Shown here piece by piece: positions 3,274 through 20,159 of a stretch of DNA of 64,000 nt. This DNA comes from Schizochytrium sp. TIO01 (lineage: Eukaryota > Sar > Bigyra > Thraustochytrida > Thraustochytriidae): positions 2,478,001 to 2,542,000 of the forward strand of contig SMSO01000035.1 of assembly GCA_004764695.1 (NCBI GenBank), written 5' to 3'. Below the pieces are notes generated by a model. That model did not search any database, was not told where the DNA came from, and saw only the letters and a program-made list of their open reading frames with translations. Numbering within the stretch: the first letter of the stretch is position 1; every line of letters starts with the position of its first letter. The position numbers and the translations under genes were made by a program.

Positions 3274-4046
3274 ATACGGGCAATGTGCAGAACACATGGT
3301 AGTTCGGTGTTTCCACTTGAAAAAGACGGCTCTGCTGAAGCTGCTCGTTGCAAAGAGTTGTTGCGTATTCACGTGCGGTGATGGCACGTGATTGTGATGA
3401 ACTTTTGGGCAGGGCTTCTTCGAGCAAGCGAGCAATAGAGAGTCGCTCCAGGCTGGCCACCTACTGCTGCTGCTATCTCCCAAGAACCTGGAGTTCTTCC
3501 TCCTTGAAGGCGATTTCGTTCACACTGCTAGGCTAACAGAGGATCATCGTAGAGTAATCGCTAGGTTGCGGACTCTACGCAGCTTTAGAGCTACCAGCTG
3601 TTCTTGTGAGTACTCGAAAGTAAGGGTCTTCTCGTAACTAGAGCTGCGAGTAAAGCTGGATGGGCTTGCTTTACATGCTGTTCTCAGATGCCTCGTCAAG
3701 CCCAGGCTCGGTGGAACGGACGTCAGTTAGTCAGCTGTCTGAGGCTTTTGCAAGAGCACCACACGGAATAAATGTTAGTTCACGTGCTGAGATTGATTTT
3801 CCTCGAGAGCTTTGTTTGCTCAGTGTTGAGAAAACTCTCCCAAAGCAAGCTTCTCCCGATCTATCGTGTTTAGGCTATTAAGTAAAACCCAGCATGCTCG
3901 ACCAAAACATCACCCAAAAGTTGCCACTTTGAGTTGGTCCTGAGGTGGTGAAATTCATGACAGATGGAAAGGAAAAAGTTGGCCAGGCTTTCCACGAGAC
4001 TTGAAGTGCTTGAACAAATTATTCCACACGCAACTCGTATGTCAAT

Positions 4047-4074
4047 CAATGAATGAATGAATGAATGAATGAAT
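4047..4074. repeat. (AATG)n microsatellite
   Basis: Seven AATG units, followed by degenerate ATAA/GATA units to about 4096. Confidence 0.9.
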
Positions 4075-7000
4075 AGATAAATAAATGATCGATAGATACT
4101 CCCACCACAAGGCCGGCAGCCCAAATCAGCATAACTCTCGCCATTGAAGTGGTGGACCCACTAATGCATGCGAGGATTTCACATTGTCATCATCTTGTTG
4201 GGTCTGTTCTTCAGTATCTTGTTTTCCTCTAGAGAAGAGATAAAGAATAAGCAAGAACAACTTGTTTGCGCTAGCTACAAACTTTTGCATATGGCAAAGC
4301 AGTTTAATTGCCGTCAGCTTGGAAATTGTCGAAATGATGCTTGATTATGTTTGCTAATTCCGCTGCAAGCCCAGCTCTTTTACTATTGCGAAAGCCTACA
4401 TCGCGAACGAGGCGTTCTGTGGCCAGGTTTCAAAAGCAGTGAGAACGAAGAAGAATTAAAGCGCACGGAACCTTGATACCAACTAACATCTAGCATCAGC
4501 CAAAGTGTGCGTATTAATCGCTTCTACTATTTTTTACTTCTTCCTACCTGAGCACTTTAGTTCCTAGTCCATAATTTTGTCTTTAATTTTTAAATGTGCG
4601 AACTTCCTTTTCTCTCTTTCTCGTCTTTTTTATTATCTATTGTTTGTTGGAAACAAATTTACTGATGCCTCACTTTTTTTCCTATGAGCAGTCATTATTT
4701 TGATTCTTCTTTTTCAATTTCTTTTCTCCTGCTTTTTAATGAGTTGGTTTTTACTAATTTTTTACTAATTTTGTAATGTGAAAAGGAAATGGGGAAAAGG
4801 AAAAGGAAAAGAACTCTTTCGAGTAGATAATATATTTGTTTGTTTGTTATTCTTTGTGAATAGCTGCAACTAACTAACAGGTTATATCGGCCACTCTGGA
4901 GGCGAATTTACAAATACTGCGCAAGGCGTTTGGCTTGACCAACTCGTGCTATGTCTACGTGGCACGGAATGAGAGACGGTCCTTCTCCGAGCACTGGCGA
5001 AGGAACCTGAGCGAATTCCTTCCTAGTATTAGATCGCGAAATTCTCAACAATAGTACTCATTTTCCTCTAATGTTGATTTGGCGGAAAGTGACGTATTCT
5101 CTTTGTTGGTTGAAGGAATATTAAAAGAGGTTTTCCTGACTCGACAAAATCACGCCGCTTCGAGCGTCTCCATATGCTGTTTAGTAAAAGGCATCGATCG
5201 TGTATATAATTCATTCATTCATTCATCGTGCAAACAGAAGCTTTTAGTACACTTCGATCTTTCCCAATTTCAGACGATTTGAAGAGGAAATAATTTCGTG
5301 TCCTCGACACCATGTTTTCTGTTTGCCAGTAGCACCAATTTGCCAGATACAGGAAGACGGCTTGTTCAAAGAAACATTCATCTGCCCGCTAGCTAATCGA
5401 TAATTACTGATTCCAGCTTGTAATACACAGGGCTTTTACGTGTCATTTATGATTTCTTGTCCAGAATATCTATGCAGCATGAAAACCTTGCGCGCCAACA
5501 ATGCAAGTTTTGCGACAAGTTGTCACCTAGATGCTGTCGATTGAGTAGAACATTTAGAGCATCTTCGAAACAGCAAATTCTTTGACTCGTGGGGCGGCCG
5601 TGAGGAGCAGTTGCAACGGTAGAAGGAGCTAAATATGCAAAGCGGTTTTTTTATTAGTTTGTTGTTGTCTATTTGGTAAAGGTGTTTGTTTGGGTTTCTT
5701 TTTCAATTAAGATAAAACTTTACGAAGTACCTAGCGAGGTGCACCCAGTGGAAGGCGTCTACAACAGCAAGTTTTATTTGGAGCTGTGTTTTTCTTTACT
5801 ATCTATCTGCTCCCAAGAACTATAAAATCCTGGCTGCCTCCTCTCATCGAGTTTGCTTTCGATGCAAGGAGCCTCTCTGGTTGGGCGGCATGTGCGGATT
5901 AGTTCACGGTCGTGGCCGCCTAAAATGAAGGGCATTTCAAGTTTGATCTATAGTGAGACCATTTGTTTTAACTTTTGGATGCACTGCTAGTGTTTTTAAT
6001 AAAGGGGAAAGACCTGTGGGCCATTTGCTGCATCATCACGCCAAATCGTGCAGGTACTACTGAGGCTACCTACTTAGATGATCGATGTCGACCAAAGTGC
6101 ATCGCAGAGAAAGCCAAGACAAACATACCTCAAGCGAACTCAAGCTAAACAGAGCAGAAGACAATGACCAGGAAAACCTCTGCTCTGGCAGTGGTGCTGG
6201 ACACCAAACCAAGCATCTATTCACGCGCGTTGCTTAAAGTTGCTCAAGGTTGCTCGCGTTGCTGTTTTCGAAACCTTTGTAAAAAAATACACACCCCACA
6301 GAGATACGATGGTTCTACGAGTGGCTAGCACTTACTTCTCTGAGTACTGAGGGCGCCAAGTAAAACGAGGGTTTTGCTGGCTGACTTGCTGGCTTGCTAA
6401 CTTGCGAATAGTAATAGCTCACGAATAGTGAAAGTAGAAGTACAGACAGTATGCGCGAGTGGGGGTTGCGCAAGTACTGCTCGTCTCCTTCAATAAATTC
6501 TTGAAGAACAAGTTAAACGCAGGCTCCACACGACACGGACACCGTGGAGGTTTCTGTGAAAATTTCTCATGATTCACGAAACTTTCGGGGCCGTTTTTAC
6601 AGTCTGCATTTTATGGTTTGCTCTTATGGAGAATTGTCCAAGGTCAAAATGTCGTCAGAATTTTCTAAACCAGCTCAATGCAAGCAAGTGTTTAAAGACC
6701 GCCATTAGTATTGACACGAATACCTGAAGTGCTCAAAAGCCCAACCTGCAGTGTTACCCGGAACTTGAAGATTTCACCACGCACTTACCGGCCGAGCTAC
6801 GAACAGCACCTCGGTCTCCAAGATAGCGCTGCATCATGTGTTGCTAACACCTACCTAGTAAATTGCACAGGAATCAATTTGCAAATCGGCGCCACAGGCC
6901 ATTTGCTGCATAAATACTTTTCCTTGGACACCAAACATAGAGATCTCGTAGAGCGGACACGACACAAGCTGCCTGCAAGCGAGCCAACGTTATCACACTA

Positions 7001-9061: not shown

Positions 9062-9074
9062 TTAGCCCTGGCTA
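9062..9074 (+). repeat. Left end of piggyBac-type element: TTAG target repeat plus 9-bp TIR
   Basis: TTAG at 9062-9065 is followed by CCCTGGCTA at 9066-9074. The same nine bases occur inverted at 13546-13554, again bordered outward by TTAG. Family knowledge: piggyBac termini begin with CCC and are flanked by a 4-bp TTAA duplication. Here the 4 bp are TTAG in the same orientation on both sides, as expected of a target-site duplication. Confidence 0.85.
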
Positions 9075-9103
9075 TTTTTCGGGACGTATTACGTCCCGAA
9101 AAA
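9075..9103. repeat. Subterminal perfect palindrome, left end
   Basis: A 29-bp palindrome directly follows the left TIR: five T, CGGGACGTA, a central T at 9089, TACGTCCCG, five A. A second degenerate copy, ending ATTACGTCCCGAAAA, follows at about 9140-9160. Its position and its mirrored partner at the right end suggest transposase-binding sites, as subterminal repeats are in many DNA transposons (inference). Confidence 0.9.
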
Positions 9104-9577
9104 TCGGATAAACTTTAATTTTCCCGGTAGAGTATTTAAGGACTTATTACGTCCCGAAAAATATGTACCTACTTGAGTCATTGATCAATTCAACAGTCTA
9201 GCTCTGTTCGGGATGAAACTCGTTTAGTTTACCCTCCCCGACCTCACCTGTCCATATGTTATCATGTTCTCATGATTCTCCGATTGATAGTTGAGTTTAG
9301 GACCAAACAATGACATTCTCAGTGGCGGTTAGGTGGTGGTTAGGTTAACAGGTATTTGACACATGGTCGTTAGGTTCTCCCACGGTACCTGTTCTACCAG
9401 ACAATTAATACTGATAAACATCAATAATATCTTGCGCCAGCATGTAGTGCCAGCAGTACCAACAAAAGTACATCATACCTTACTTCATCGTCCACTTGCT
9501 AGTCTACTTGGGATCTATCAGCACTTCCCTCAGCGAAGAGGTCCATTGGCGCTTGAGTTTAACGTCAGCTGTGTGTC

Positions 9578-12500
9578 ATGTCTCTAGATGACGTCGAGAA
9601 TGACAAGGACTCAATCTACATTTCCTCTGATGAGTCTTCTTCTGATGAAGACGAGAACGATCTCTATGAGTGTTCATCGGCAAGTACTCCTGGCCATGAA
9701 AACTGGACCTTTCAATCTTACTCCACTGAAGGCGCAAAGTACCACAGCAACCTATCTGGGTCTCAACTTGGCATGAACGCAGTCCAACTCAAGTACAATT
9801 GCTCAAGCGAATTAATGCTCCCCAAGGTTCAACAAGAAAGTTCGGAGATTACTAAAAGGATTCGAAAGGTTCTTCGTGTTGACAATAACTACAAATTTAC
9901 CAGGCTTGATAGTTTCAAGATTTGTTTGCCGCCAGGCTGGGTGATTGCAGTTAAGGAATGGTTGAATAGTCTTAGCTCAAACGCATCTCCGCCATTTTCT
10001 ATCACGGATCAAGATTTCCGTGCCTACCTTCTCGTTGAAATTTCTCTGCGAGTTGCAGGAAAGTCGTTCTCGGAGTGTCTTGAGGACCCACCAGGTCATT
10101 GGAATCTAGCCCATACGGTATCCTATTCAAAAGTTCGAAAGGCAATGAGCCTGGACAAGTCCAATCGGGCAACAAAAGGGTCACGCGAGGCTAGAGTATG
10201 CTCCTCAAGTCCGATCATCCATGAAATGGGAGGTGCTGCTCAGCGCCATTGGGTGAAGATGTTCTTTGTCCCTAAAACCACTTGGATCGATCTTGATGAC
10301 GACAAGCTTCCCTATGGTTCTCCTCAGTGGGAGAATTTTGGAATTCGTACCATTCCAACGAAAACAAAAAAACAGAAACCCGTGATACATCTTGTGTGCT
10401 CTGTGGGTACAGGTCTGCTCCTAGTACCACGGTTAGAGACTTCCCACTCACCTGTTCATAAAATTGTAAGCAAGGCAATAGATTTTCTGAATGAGGGGGA
10501 GTCAGGAGAAAGCCCTGATGCGTCTGTGTCTTCAGAGCTTCGTGTATTCATTGATCGTGGTTATCTGGCATTATCGAAACCTCAGGATATGGATCGTGCA
10601 ACAAACATAACTCAAATTCTTCAGTCAAAGGGAGTCAAATTTCTTGGAACTTGTCGCAAGACCTCGTCATTCCCGTTTATAGATGTTGAAGGACCAGTTC
10701 CTGCTACGCCTGTGAGGGGAAGTCAAACTATCATTAACAGGAATGGCCGTCGAAGCACCTACACCGCTCAAAGATACCAGAATGGCGATTTTGTTGCTGC
10801 GATGATGATGCGTCACGGTGCGGGAAAGCATAGAGTTGCACAACTCATCACGAACGACCGTTGTTTGGCTGACCAAGTTTGGAGTTACGAAGTACTTCCT
10901 GCTGGAGTAGATTGGAACTCACCAGGTGGTGTAAAGCGCGTTCCACATGCTGAGATTGAGATAGAGCCGTGTGACATGAGTACATATAAGATGAAGGCAC
11001 AAGCTAATCATAAAATTAACCTTGTGAACGCCAATATCTTCTCAATGACAATTTCCCAAAGAACACCTGACTGGTTTATGGCTCGGCAATTTAGAATTAC
11101 AAGCACCGGTGCTTTTACCTGTATCAACTTTAAAAATGCTCCATTCGTTCATTCGGATGAGCTTATGGCCTTACACCACGATGTGAAATCGTTCGCTTGT
11201 CTTGACCCGCAACGAATTATCTCATTATTCCCCCGTCCTAATAAGCGTTCTTCTTATTCATCTGAAGGAGCTCAGAAGCAATATAAAAGGAAGCGTCAAG
11301 GGGAGGGTCTTATTCTTGAATATACATACTGGATGCAACGTATGAACAAAAATGAGCTTATCCAAAAGTTACTTTCTTTGGATGTAGGTGCAAAGACTGA
11401 TGGCAAAAAGATCGAACTAGCCAAGCGGATCGTAGACATCCTATCAAGAACTATAGATCATGAAACGGTCTCAAACGGAGAACTATCTTCCTTACAGGAA
11501 GACATACACCCTCAGCATGCATCTCAGGAGTCCACTACTCAAGACCTGCTGGAAATGAGTGACAGTAGTGACATTGGGGACAGCTTTCCCTTGCACAATT
11601 CTGAAACGATTGATGATAACCATACATGCACTTTCGAGGAACGCCAGAAATCATTTCTTAGAACAATCACACCAAGTTGGTTTATGAAGCCTATTCAAAA
11701 TGGGTTTTCGAATCATAAAAACCCACTGGCTTTGGGGATTGAAAATGAGGCAGACGTGGCGAAAGATCTTTCCAGATGGGTTAAGAAAGCAAGTTCCAAT
11801 AAATTCTGTATTCTCCAGCTACGCAAATATGGTCTGATTATTAATCGGGAAGTCCAATTTGTAGCAGACTCACCCGACGGTGCAGCTGTTCTTTTGAGGA
11901 ATACAGAGCTAGAAGGAAACAATTTTGTTATAGATGATGTATTTGCCTTAGAAATCAAAACAAGTACAAATGCCAAAACTATAGATGAGTTAAAGTCTCG
12001 AGTTGCTGGTCAGAGTGCGTGGCACGAATGCAAATGTGGAACAAGTGAGTTCGAGTCGTTAGTCCCAAATCCGTCGTTTCGAACTCAGTGTATCCATCAT
12101 GCAGCTACTTTAGATGTCCCTTACACCCTCCTTATATATGCCACAACTGAGGAAATCATGCAAGGAGTGCTAATCAAAGTCTCATGTGCCCAGCGCCAGT
12201 CATGGCGTGAGTATTTCAAAGCGTTGAGTGATGAATACATGGGCTTTGCTTATGGCAATCAACTTGGTAGGTTTCCTCGTTTTGCACCAGACCAATCACC
12301 AGACTGGGGTTATGCTGTGGATTTACACAGTGCCGAACTCGCTTTGCAGCTTTGGCGGAGGCATAGTGACGACGTGCTGGTCAACGGAACCCCACCGCCT
12401 TGCAAACGCCTACTGCCTTTGACTGTTAGTGTCTGGAATAAGATGATGGGCGGAGTTGATATCACTAGAAAAACTATCAATGGAGCGAGCATTCGTACTT

Positions 12501-13093
12501 CAAAGCTGACTCCTAATGCTTTGGTTTGTTTAACATTCATTGACTATATTTTATACAACTCGTTTCGAGCGTATCAGCTCCTCTCAATGGAGCATCGGAA
12601 CCTCACATCGAAGTGTAAAACAATTACGGAATGGTCAATGCTACGCAAAAATCTGTGCTGCTATAGAGGCTATCTAAGTAGTCTCGCAGAAGAAATTAGG
12701 GTTGTCTCAATGGAATCCCTTTACCCATTTGACAATACTTGTTCCATGTCTGACATAGAATTCTGCTGGAGAGCAACTGATAACACCATTTCGCCTACTT
12801 CTACAGCCTCGCTAGAATCGCCGCAACAGTATCAATACAGTAAGTCACGACTCCCAGAACTTCTACAAACTCGTTTAGTTGGACAGCATGAATGCGTGGG
12901 CAAGTTCAAGAAGAGGGGAGCCTGCATTATGTGTTGTGTTGATTGCGAACGGGGATCGGCGCCAGACCATCCATATCGTAATCCACGGAAGACCACTCGA
13001 TGGTGCCAAACTTGCAATGCTTACATTTGTAAGCATTGCAATATCAAATTTCATAGCGAGGAGCAAATTACGATTCCTCATTTCCATACATAA
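9578..13093 (+). CDS. PiggyBac-type transposase with inserted YqaJ-like nuclease and SAP-like segment
   Basis: The protein is 1171 aa, from ATG 9578 to TAA 13093, with no internal stop. The N-terminus is acidic and Ser/Asp/Glu-rich (1-35), as in piggyBac proteins. The DDE core begins with a candidate first Asp at D238 (WIDLDDD) and a second at D326 (VFIDRGY, followed by the typical G-x-x-F-x-GT-x-R region). The third is D961 in MMGGVDITRK, the piggyBac GGVD motif, although the usual GGVDxxD second Asp is R964. Between D326 and D961, residues about 495-880 match the YqaJ/PD-(D/E)XK nuclease plan: RTPDWFMARQFRITS at 495, E722/E724, SPDG at D767, EIK at E792-K794, and a Gln-containing helix at Q837. 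A SAP-like helix pair lies at 589-622. The C-terminus (from C1106) is Cys/His-rich, like the piggyBac zinc-binding tail. By family analogy it cuts and pastes the surrounding element in the nucleus; the nuclease role is unknown. Confidence 0.93.
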   Translation: MSLDDVENDKDSIYISSDESSSDEDENDLYECSSASTPGHENWTFQSYSTEGAKYHSNLSGSQLGMNAVQLKYNCSSELMLPKVQQESSEITKRIRKVLRVDNNYKFTRLDSFKICLPPGWVIAVKEWLNSLSSNASPPFSITDQDFRAYLLVEISLRVAGKSFSECLEDPPGHWNLAHTVSYSKVRKAMSLDKSNRATKGSREARVCSSSPIIHEMGGAAQRHWVKMFFVPKTTWIDLDDDKLPYGSPQWENFGIRTIPTKTKKQKPVIHLVCSVGTGLLLVPRLETSHSPVHKIVSKAIDFLNEGESGESPDASVSSELRVFIDRGYLALSKPQDMDRATNITQILQSKGVKFLGTCRKTSSFPFIDVEGPVPATPVRGSQTIINRNGRRSTYTAQRYQNGDFVAAMMMRHGAGKHRVAQLITNDRCLADQVWSYEVLPAGVDWNSPGGVKRVPHAEIEIEPCDMSTYKMKAQANHKINLVNANIFSMTISQRTPDWFMARQFRITSTGAFTCINFKNAPFVHSDELMALHHDVKSFACLDPQRIISLFPRPNKRSSYSSEGAQKQYKRKRQGEGLILEYTYWMQRMNKNELIQKLLSLDVGAKTDGKKIELAKRIVDILSRTIDHETVSNGELSSLQEDIHPQHASQESTTQDLLEMSDSSDIGDSFPLHNSETIDDNHTCTFEERQKSFLRTITPSWFMKPIQNGFSNHKNPLALGIENEADVAKDLSRWVKKASSNKFCILQLRKYGLIINREVQFVADSPDGAAVLLRNTELEGNNFVIDDVFALEIKTSTNAKTIDELKSRVAGQSAWHECKCGTSEFESLVPNPSFRTQCIHHAATLDVPYTLLIYATTEEIMQGVLIKVSCAQRQSWREYFKALSDEYMGFAYGNQLGRFPRFAPDQSPDWGYAVDLHSAELALQLWRRHSDDVLVNGTPPPCKRLLPLTVSVWNKMMGGVDITRKTINGASIRTSKLTPNALVCLTFIDYILYNSFRAYQLLSMEHRNLTSKCKTITEWSMLRKNLCCYRGYLSSLAEEIRVVSMESLYPFDNTCSMSDIEFCWRATDNTISPTSTASLESPQQYQYSKSRLPELLQTRLVGQHECVGKFKKRGACIMCCVDCERGSAPDHPYRNPRKTTRWCQTCNAYICKHCNIKFHSEEQITIPHFHT

Positions 13094-13286
13094 AAATTAT
13101 CCACACAAAAAATTAATATTACATTTAGCTTATATAAAATCTTCATTTATCGCGAAATCTTCATCTTTAGATGTTTCTCCGACTTGAGCAACGCAAAAAT
13201 AAACTACTATTGTTTATATTAACTAAACTATTAAACTAACCAAAATACCCAAACTCTTATACGTTTTCGCTAATGCAAAGTTCAGT

Positions 13287-13313
13287 TTTTCAGGACGTAT
13301 TACGTCCTGAAAA
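13287..13313. repeat. Subterminal perfect palindrome, right end
   Basis: A 27-bp palindrome: TTTT, CAGGACGTA, central T at 13300, TACGTCCTG, AAAA. It shares the GGACGTAtTACGTCC core with the left-end palindrome but lies about 240 bp from the right end, whereas the left copy abuts its TIR. Confidence 0.9.
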
Positions 13314-13545
13314 TCTAAAGGCCTATTTGCCCTATTAGGCCGTTTTATCGAGGTTGTGAGCCAATTTTTGGACGAGTAGCGTGAGCTCAATACGCTTGCT
13401 TCTGCAAAGAAATCGTGCTCAGTTTAGGGAAACAGTTGTTTCAACATGATCATACAATCAAATTTACGATTTTAGATCTTTACAGGGTTTTCTGGCGATT
13501 TTAGTCAAAAATATTTTGCGGACATAATTCGGGACATTTTGAATT

Positions 13546-13558
13546 TAGCCAGGGTTAG
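13546..13558 (-). repeat. Right end of piggyBac-type element: 9-bp TIR plus TTAG target repeat
   Basis: TAGCCAGGG at 13546-13554 is the exact reverse complement of the left TIR, followed by TTAG at 13555-13558. Further in, at about 13513-13545, the reverse strand resembles the left end loosely (ATTATGTCCG against ATTACGTCCCG), so the imperfect TIR may extend beyond nine bases. Confidence 0.85.
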
Positions 13559-18458: not shown

Positions 18459-20159
18459 TCAGCAAGCACAACCGTTCTCATGATGACTATTTTTGTGCTC
18501 TTTCATTTCTAGGTTGCTTGATTTTAGATCACGCCAGCTCGAAAAAACACCATGCTGCATAAAAGCAGTAAGTGATTGTTCATGAGAACTACTCGCAACA
18601 CCCCGCTTCAATGACTGATATTTTTCTACGAACGGTAAATCGCTTTCTTTAGCATCACCATCATGAGATTGGTTAATATTGGTAAGAAAATCCGATGACG
18701 GAATCCCTTGTAAAGAGAGTATTTTAGCTTGGACCTGACGATATAAGTCAAAAATTGAATGCTTGCAAGTGAGAGGTCTTGGTTGAGGTTTGGCTTTGCC
18801 AATGAGCTTCTGTTTTTTGCTTTGTTTTGTTCCATGTGCTTCGCCACGTGCTTGAACAATGATTTGTGCTAGGCCCGACTGCTTCTGGCCATTTGCTAAG
18901 GTCAAGGGTGCTGCGCGAGCGTTTGTCAAAGAGTCAACATCAAGAAAGGATGGTGCCCGGATCCATTGCAAAGCAAGCCCTGCTGCTGGAGGCGGTCCTT
19001 GCGGCTTTTTACGCTTATTACATTCAGAATTTGAGGCTGGCAACTGTGACTTTTCAGAAGCCTCACGGGTATAAGCTTCAGCAGATGATCTCGACCTCGG
19101 AAAATGAAGATCACATATGGCAACTGTCCAATCTTGTGCTCCAAATAAGTTTGAATCATTCCCCTCACTCACTTGTGGGTCTTCCTGAGACTTATCAGGT
19201 GCTGTCTCCAGCAAACGCTCGTGAGTTGCACGCCAGCAAGCTTCAAGGGCATCAAGAGCTTCAGCACTTTCTGAATTGATTTGCTGACCAGCGTTTGCTT
19301 CGTTGGTGTGGATAGTGCTTCGTAGAGCGAGGACGCGGCCGGTTGCCTCATTTGTTTCGGCAGATGCACTCTCGTTTTGGCTAGATAAGCAATCAGAGCT
19401 TAAAACAAGGCCTTGAAGCAGGACTTTACCCTCAATAACACTGGAGAGCAAGGCCGTTTGTAATCCTACAACCCTCCAGCGAGCAATTTTGTCACTACAA
19501 GACATTGACAATGATCGGTCCCCTGGGTGGAGGTTGCTTCGGCCGCTTTTGCTTCGTAGCTGTCCTATCGCTTGATCTCCCTCACGGAGCTCTCGGTCTG
19601 CCACCAGCTTGGCTCCAGAGAAACGATCTGCGACAACTGATCCGTCTCCACAAGGTAGCTCCGAGACGAAGAGATAAATGGACATATCTGGACGAAACTT
19701 TAAGGATTTCTTGTTAAGGCTTTCAGTATGAGCTTCTGAGTTGATGTCATGGGAATAGGTACTGTGACCATGGTTTTCCACAAGCTCCTCTTCTATTAGC
19801 AGTGCGTCATCGTCACATACTTGATGTTCTGAATGCCTTGCCAAAGCTTCTTGCAAAATCAACCACGAGAGTCCCCTACGAGCAAGAACTTCTGCATGAC
19901 AGTCATTAATCACAAGTCCTTCAGGTGACATTTTCCGAGGTCCCAGGCACTTGCTTCCTGTTGCCAAAGAAATCACGCTTGCACTCAAGGTCGAAGCACC
20001 TGTCGCAGTCTTTTGGTCCCGCACAGCCACTAGTGCAGCCATGATCGTCCATTCCGAAGCTTGAGCCACCTGCCACTTGCGCTCGAGACCATCGTAGGCC
20101 GCCAGAGCCGCCTTGGCCACCTCCTGAGATACTTCGTTGACCCCCTTGGCACTAGTCAT
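18459..20159 (-). CDS. ADAT1: tRNA-specific adenosine deaminase 1 (ADAT1/TAD1-type)
   Basis: The protein is 566 aa from ATG 20159, single exon. ADAT1/TAD1 converts adenosine 37, next to the anticodon of eukaryotic tRNA-Ala, to inosine, which is then methylated. The adenosine-deaminase/editase domain fills most of the protein. The zinc and catalytic residues are visible: H88 and E90 in NDCHAEVLARRG, C170 in SELPCGDGS, and C221 in SMSCSDKIARW, followed by VVGLQTALLSSVIEG as in the ADAR/ADAT1 core. The N-terminal SVISLATGSKCLG segment also matches the family. Length is in the usual 400-570 aa range; the Ser/Glu-rich stretch at about 245-330 is probably a variable loop. The gene is divergent from the SulP transporter, with 3.3 kb between them. 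The call is firm because motif order and spacing both fit. Confidence 0.93.
   Translation of the reverse strand: MTSAKGVNEVSQEVAKAALAAYDGLERKWQVAQASEWTIMAALVAVRDQKTATGASTLSASVISLATGSKCLGPRKMSPEGLVINDCHAEVLARRGLSWLILQEALARHSEHQVCDDDALLIEEELVENHGHSTYSHDINSEAHTESLNKKSLKFRPDMSIYLFVSELPCGDGSVVADRFSGAKLVADRELREGDQAIGQLRSKSGRSNLHPGDRSLSMSCSDKIARWRVVGLQTALLSSVIEGKVLLQGLVLSSDCLSSQNESASAETNEATGRVLALRSTIHTNEANAGQQINSESAEALDALEACWRATHERLLETAPDKSQEDPQVSEGNDSNLFGAQDWTVAICDLHFPRSRSSAEAYTREASEKSQLPASNSECNKRKKPQGPPPAAGLALQWIRAPSFLDVDSLTNARAAPLTLANGQKQSGLAQIIVQARGEAHGTKQSKKQKLIGKAKPQPRPLTCKHSIFDLYRQVQAKILSLQGIPSSDFLTNINQSHDGDAKESDLPFVEKYQSLKRGVASSSHEQSLTAFMQHGVFSSWRDLKSSNLEMKEHKNSHHENGCAC

Follow-up and report, generated by a model that had tools for sequence, protein, structure and literature searches.

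The window, i.e., the whole 64,000-nt stretch of Schizochytrium sp. TIO01 contig SMSO01000035.1 analyzed here, contains a complete transposon of 4489 bp, extending from position 9066 to 13554 on the + strand. The bounds were set by comparing the flanks of the seven full-length copies found in the genome. Flank comparison also identifies the target-site duplication (TSD) TTAG on the left (9062–9065) and on the right (13555–13558). The ends, when compared, reveal a left terminal inverted repeat at 9066–9074 (+), with the tip CCCTGGCTA, and a right terminal inverted repeat at 13546–13554 (−). The tips start with CCC, and such YY tips are a feature of the piggyBac superfamily. A 19-bp palindrome, CGGGACGTATTACGTCCCG, occupies 9080–9098, corresponding to bp 15–33 of the left end, and the perfect inverted repeat around it spans 9074–9104. 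The right end has a repeat layout unlike that of the left end; near it, at 13281–13319, lies an inner palindrome with the core CAGGACGTATTACGTCCTG.

The transposase is encoded by an ORF of 1171 codons plus a stop (9578–13093, +). The original prediction, made from the letters of the window, placed the residues D326 and D961 in one uninterrupted ORF, and this is what is found. The neighbors of the element in the window include genes for an adenosine deaminase domain protein, a sulfate permease, TRM13, the start of a sphingolipid desaturase, a Myb protein and a kinase. They look like ordinary eukaryotic genes, so the element sits on a eukaryotic chromosome. The adenosine-deaminase (editase) domain protein is encoded at 18459–20159 on the − strand (E 2.6e-36).

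The transposase, its copies and their target sites

The proposed catalytic triad of the transposase is as follows. D240 (10295–10297) is the proposed first Asp, with D242 as the alternative, from a by-eye comparison with D268 of Trichoplusia ni (T. ni) piggyBac. The second Asp, D326 (10553–10555), is likewise matched by eye to T. ni D346, and both residues fit piggyBac D1 and D2 in this way. The third, D961 (12458–12460), lies in the motif WNKMMGGVD and is placed by profile and alignment. Residues 372–430 (10691–10867) resemble, by eye, the piggyBac β insertion domain, which is apparently kept. At the C-terminus, residues 1116–1159 (12923–13054) form a zinc finger, or CRD.

Over the D3 region, the transposase matches piggyBac. 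A profile built from the window protein and L009, the protein of a second family described below, scores 32.6 against a profile of T. ni piggyBac and piggyBat, where the best of 200 shuffles reaches 21.6. For five members, the score is 26.4 and the best of 200 shuffles 25.2. The D1–D2 half (residues 225–445) scores 16.3 against the same profile, which is unconvincing alone and comes without a shuffle control. Single sequences do less well: the piggyBac score is reached by 12 of 10,000 shuffles for the window protein and by 159 of 10,000 for L009. In these and the other single-sequence tests, 3719 to 4542 of the 10,000 shuffles were scored, the remainder being counted as below. The Pfam transposase model DDE_Tnp_1_7 (PF13843) has no match over its curated cut-off in the window protein. 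As to the zinc finger, ten Cys/His positions are kept in all five aligned members; the zf-Tnp_2 model (PF13842) finds it in the relative L030 at 22.9 bits, under the cut-off of 24, and does not match the window's own finger. Its probable binding site is the palindrome close to the left tip. The palindrome spans bp 15–33 in the window family and 12–34 in the second family, as compared with bp 17–33 bound by the CRD dimer in T. ni piggyBac (PMC7351741).

Searching the 64-Mb assembly (37 contigs) with the protein gave at least 26 matching places, the match counts being lower bounds. Seven, counting the window copy, are full-length at 100%, and there are zero mismatches among these seven over the 4489 bp. 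Every copy has an exact 4-bp duplication of its own target site on both sides. End-to-end identity together with individual duplications points to very recent transposition. In the reading favored below, which we hold at a little under even confidence, the window element would be a cut-and-paste transposon that is autonomous and was active very recently. An eighth copy of the window family is about 97.5% alike. Its left tip is readable and preceded by ATAA; it was left out of the TSD count because its right tip has decayed.

The second family is represented by L009/L027 (contig C36) and L010/L028 (contig C33), 97–98% alike in DNA, of which the C33 copy is broken. At the protein level, L009 and the window protein share 40% identity, and the tips of the family are CCCTGGATA.

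The seven window-family TSDs are ATAT, TTAT, TTAA, CTAA, TTAT, ATAG and TTAG, and those of the second family are CTAA and CTAG. That is, all nine insertions with both ends readable have a central TA, the consensus is NTAN, and TTAA occurs once. The TTAA specificity of canonical piggyBac is thus not seen here (1/9). For Pokey, a piggyBac element of Daphnia, TTAA accounts for 88.13% of insertions and about 12% are non-TTAA, and its authors propose that no bases but the central T and A may be required (PMC3849761). Under Pokey's 88% rate, one TTAA or fewer in nine insertions has a binomial probability of 3e-7.

The domain between D2 and D3

D326 and D961 are 635 residues apart, whereas in T. ni piggyBac D346 and D447 are separated by 101 (PMC7351741). 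An insert of roughly 600 residues had been predicted; the excess length stands, but it includes a poorly conserved linker (residues 546–684, 26/139 identical between the window protein and L009). Two proposed nuclease halves flank this linker. Half A (residues 481–545, 11018–11212, +) holds the N-terminal YqaJ motif W..AR..RITS; this first nuclease motif, RTPDWFMARQFRITS, begins at residue 495. The linker (11213–11629, +) follows, and then half B (residues 685–895, 11630–12262, +), with E724, D767, E792, K794 and Q837. Within the linker, at 11291–11497, there is a weak resemblance to a SAP domain that falls short of the cut-off (E 0.032).

The order of motifs between D2 and D3 is an E722/E724 pair, SPDG with D767, EIK with E792/K794 and a helix with Q837. 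The prediction that nuclease motifs occur in YqaJ/λ-exonuclease order at named residues thus holds, and all six residues (E722, E724, D767, E792, K794 and Q837) are identical in L009 despite the 40% overall identity. Enzymes of the YqaJ/λ-exonuclease family are 5′-to-3′ exonucleases.

For comparison, a YqaJ profile was built from 10 phage proteins, chosen from 40 listed of 225 records, and a host protein, L039. The latter is a stand-alone YqaJ-domain protein of 407 aa (L039 1550–2773, −) with SPDG and EIK, related to phage exonucleases; tblastn with it finds 225 phage records, and no relative of it was found in the viral contig collection. Against this profile, the window-plus-L009 profile scores 30.5 for residues 481–560 (YqaJ positions 1–22; best of 200 column shuffles 18.3) and 31.7 for residues 680–905 (YqaJ positions 62–173; best of 200 column shuffles 25.3). 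Both halves are in register with YqaJ, and none of the 200 column shuffles reaches the score of either half. In the alignment, the YqaJ positions NE, SPDG, EIK and Q are paired with E724, D767, E792, K794 and Q837. A sliding scan with 80-residue windows has its five best matches at three sites, each of them colinear with YqaJ. The hhalign probabilities are 60% (481–560), 38% (680–905) and 75% for both halves in global mode; with the whole protein as query, the probability is 9%.

These sequence and profile data support the claim that a PD-(D/E)XK nuclease of the YqaJ/λ-exonuclease type is nested in a piggyBac-like transposase, in the interval from D2 to D3. The original prediction went further, in taking the nuclease to have been captured as the piggyBac insertion domain itself. 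That part does not appear to hold, for the segment at about 372–430 that resembles this domain by eye precedes the nuclease. Because a piggyBac-type insertion segment lies ahead of it, the nuclease looks like a further insertion, between the retained segment and the D961 helix, rather than a replacement.

Other searches gave weaker results or none. No YqaJ (PF09588) match over the cut-off was obtained for the window protein in Pfam scans, and the protein alone gave nothing useful against Pfam, PHROGs or PDB. A four-member profile had only chance-like matches in PDB (E 0.48 and above). With the YqaJ HMM, 5 of 10,000 shuffles reach the score of the window protein and 44 of 10,000 that of L009. 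Single-sequence AlphaFold models are too low in confidence to use (mean pLDDT 37.6 for residues 486–896 and 37.4 for 687–900). For residues 680–905, a three-member profile scores 26.4 and a five-member profile 19.8, the latter being reached by 2 of 200 shuffles. The weaker five-member match fits decay of the nuclease site in three members, judged from their sequences. The window-plus-L009 profile is preferred, a choice made with the results already seen, on the ground that the active site is gone from the other members.

Between the window protein and L009, identity is 29/65 and 98/211 in the nuclease halves, 98/215 from D1 through the insertion segment and 48/75 in the D3 stretch. The nuclease halves are thus conserved like the D1-to-insertion core; the D3 stretch is better conserved than they are, and the linker far less so. 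A dN/dS comparison of two older pairs of copies, at about 15 synonymous changes per pair, had no power to reveal selection on single domains such as the nuclease.

The nested layout is common to the two mobile families and to diverged relatives in the same genome. L011 (1399–5133) has a 1244-aa open frame with 33% identity to the window protein; L030 (2601–6518) has a 1305-aa frame with stretches of 35% and 26% identity and a short one of 42%; L031 (1890–5588) has a 1232-aa frame with stretches of 26% and 41%. The three frames still include the nuclease region. A simple search of these loci for tips with matching NTAN found no ends. At the LExK position, the window protein has LEIK and L009 LEFK, whereas L011 has LKIN, L030 IHVH and L031 LEF-. 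That is, the nuclease site is intact in both lineages with ends and lost in all three aligned lineages in which no ends were found. The catalytic Asp residues are partly or wholly lost across the three, L030 retaining the triad. L011, L030 and L031 may possibly be domesticated DNA-binding genes. Another relative, L053, is spread over two frames and, by reading, lacks the ExK.

Other long ORFs match the Pfam piggyBac transposase model, i.e., L036 (473–3427), L037 (1700–4231) and L038 (1138–4317). L036 and L037 give near-complete matches within 1200 bases, and so have no large insertion; L038 matches only model positions 2–95. Inspection by eye shows no Asp in L036 where D2 would be expected.

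Relation to known transposons

The window element resembles T. ni piggyBac and piggyBat in its 4-bp duplication with central TA, its unequal ends, its DDD core with GGVD and its C-terminal zinc finger. The tips of T. ni piggyBac begin with CCC, as do those described here. It differs from piggyBac in that TTAA is found in only one of nine duplications and that DDE_Tnp_1_7 is blind to its protein. Most of the piggyBac features tested are thus shared; since strict TTAA and the Pfam transposase model both failed, we assign the element to a divergent piggyBac-like lineage and not to canonical piggyBac. The non-TTAA duplications that keep the middle TA are shared with Pokey; its higher share of TTAA sets Pokey apart, and the available part of PMC3849761 mentions no nested nuclease.

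The pairing of a transposase with such a nuclease is already known, in other layouts. KolobokE carries a λ-exonuclease-like nuclease (PMC9587614). It belongs to another transposase superfamily, and its nuclease lies downstream rather than nested, as described in the same source. ISL2EU is also a eukaryotic DNA transposon with a YqaJ exonuclease domain; it differs in having a separate nuclease ORF, a PHIS-type transposase with THAP, and an AT duplication (PMC4482050). The window element has one ORF and 4-bp NTAN duplications instead. Relative to YqaJ and λ exonuclease themselves (PF09588; 3syy, 1avq), the order of W..R..T.S, NE helix, SPDG, EIK and Q helix is the same, but here a variable linker of about 140 residues divides the domain, which is embedded in a transposase and below Pfam detection.

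No nuclease nested in a piggyBac core was seen among the matches listed from the openly licensed literature, which covers papers and not repeat databases, so a Repbase entry for such a family may exist. Relatives outside this genome were not found in the viral contig, genome contig and phage collections. The plasmid collection gave two Rhizobium records only (E = 0.04, 21.8% identity). The match of plasmid NC_008382.1 (4693–5388, annotated as AbiE) to residues 709–947, at E 0.04, is probably due to chance.

Should our interpretation be right, a freshly active NTAN element with a nuclease in its core would show that target choice and end processing are separable. It would also be a further case, beside KolobokE and ISL2EU, in which a eukaryotic transposase is combined with a λ-exonuclease-like nuclease. 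The leading place of piggyBac in genome engineering stems from its restriction to TTAA and its seamless excision. Since the seven copies are identical, the element is probably still mobile, so its function is directly testable.

Possible roles of the nested nuclease

The reading we favor, at somewhat less than even confidence, is that of a divergent piggyBac-like autonomous element with a DDD core, a CRD and a nested YqaJ-type nuclease that would trim the mismatched donor flap. The transposase would cut at the tips and join them to a 4-bp site with a central TA; joining to such sites is seen in the duplications. piggyBac-type hairpin chemistry would leave 4 nt of the old flank as a flap on the 5′ ends, a donor flap step that is described for piggyBac (PMC7351741). 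Since the sites are NTAN and not TTAA, the donor flap would usually be mismatched with the new site. The tethered 5′-strand nuclease may then trim the mismatched flap, permitting gap fill. All nine duplications are perfect though donor flaps would usually mismatch, which implies that flaps are removed or repaired, and the nested nuclease may be the nearest candidate for flap removal. For T. ni piggyBac, the exact flap sequence is reported to be unimportant in vivo (PMC7351741). This indifference, together with the roughly 12% of non-TTAA insertions of Pokey, for which no nuclease is mentioned in the available text, suggests that the host can probably handle flaps alone. KolobokE, too, has such a nuclease even though Kolobok duplications are TTAA (PMC9587614), which speaks against flap trimming. 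On these grounds, flap trimming is only slightly more probable than resection at the donor break.

In the case of resection, which we hold at somewhat lower confidence than flap trimming, the layout is the same and the nuclease would resect the 5′ strands of the donor, blocking seamless rejoining; homologous repair would then restore the donor, with a gain in copies. Enzymes of the λ-exonuclease/YqaJ family are known to resect DNA for recombination. Seven identical copies bespeak efficient spread, and λ-exonuclease-like nucleases also accompany transposases without an NTAN target. In addition, the relative at C31:3017 kb (L032, C31:3013500–3022000) has an internal deletion that starts soon after D2 and ends slightly beyond D3, of the kind that aborted gap repair leaves. 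In the window family itself, however, no internal deletion of more than a few bases occurs in the eight copies found (seven identical, the eighth alike at about 97.5%), and searches with both noncoding ends gave, as a lower bound, the same eight copies plus one relic matched by each end. A less probable proposal, to which we give little weight, is that the nuclease fold is kept and is non-catalytic in transposition, serving as a DNA-binding or assembly module or in regulation, with the host repairing flaps. The 1232–1305-aa frames of L011, L030 and L031, which retain the region with the nuclease site lost, accord with it, as do Pokey and T. ni piggyBac, which manage non-TTAA sites or mismatched flaps with no nuclease mentioned in the available parts of the sources. 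These three relatives are not evidence for mobility without a nuclease, because no ends were found for them, and the complete active-site set in both mobile families, at 40% identity, argues against a non-catalytic role.

Two further readings concern identity rather than role. That the D2–D3 domain is not a YqaJ nuclease, its motif order being a chance likeness in a long lineage-specific insertion, we consider very doubtful. The missing Pfam YqaJ match, the weak single-sequence scores, the modest hhalign probabilities, the unusable AlphaFold models and the shuffles that reach the five-member score speak for a chance likeness; two separate halves in the right order and register, unmatched by any shuffle, and the colinearity of the best scan windows speak against it. 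The least probable reading, improbable in the extreme, makes the element a KolobokE-like Kolobok. KolobokE does encode a λ-exonuclease-like nuclease, and Kolobok duplications are of 4 bp, as TTAA, with RR/YY tips (PMC9587614). Here the tips are CCC, as opposed to 5′-RR; the C/DxxH signature, which in Kolobok stands between D2 and the last catalytic residue, occurs twice in the window protein and neither occurrence is kept in L009; the nuclease lies between D2 and D3 instead of downstream of the transposase domain; and the protein has both a GGVD region of the piggyBac type and the zinc finger. Kolobok membership was rejected, as tips, C/DxxH and nuclease placement all fail.

Returning to the piggyBac-like reading, a wider proposal covers both flap trimming and donor resection. 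It holds that the lineage dropped TTAA targeting, took a λ-exonuclease-type nuclease into its catalytic domain for one or the other task, so that a single polypeptide would cut, join and process ends, and can insert at any NTAN; we put it forward as possible, at well under even confidence. The residues that read the target can be compared with those of T. ni piggyBac, where Y283 stacks on the last A of TTAA and N440 touches the inner A (PMC7351741). In a weak alignment, Y283 probably corresponds to T258 of the window protein and to a Leu of L009, and N440 to N954, an Asn that L009 shares. The change to Thr or Leu and the kept Asn would agree with outer bases no longer being read while the inner TA still is.
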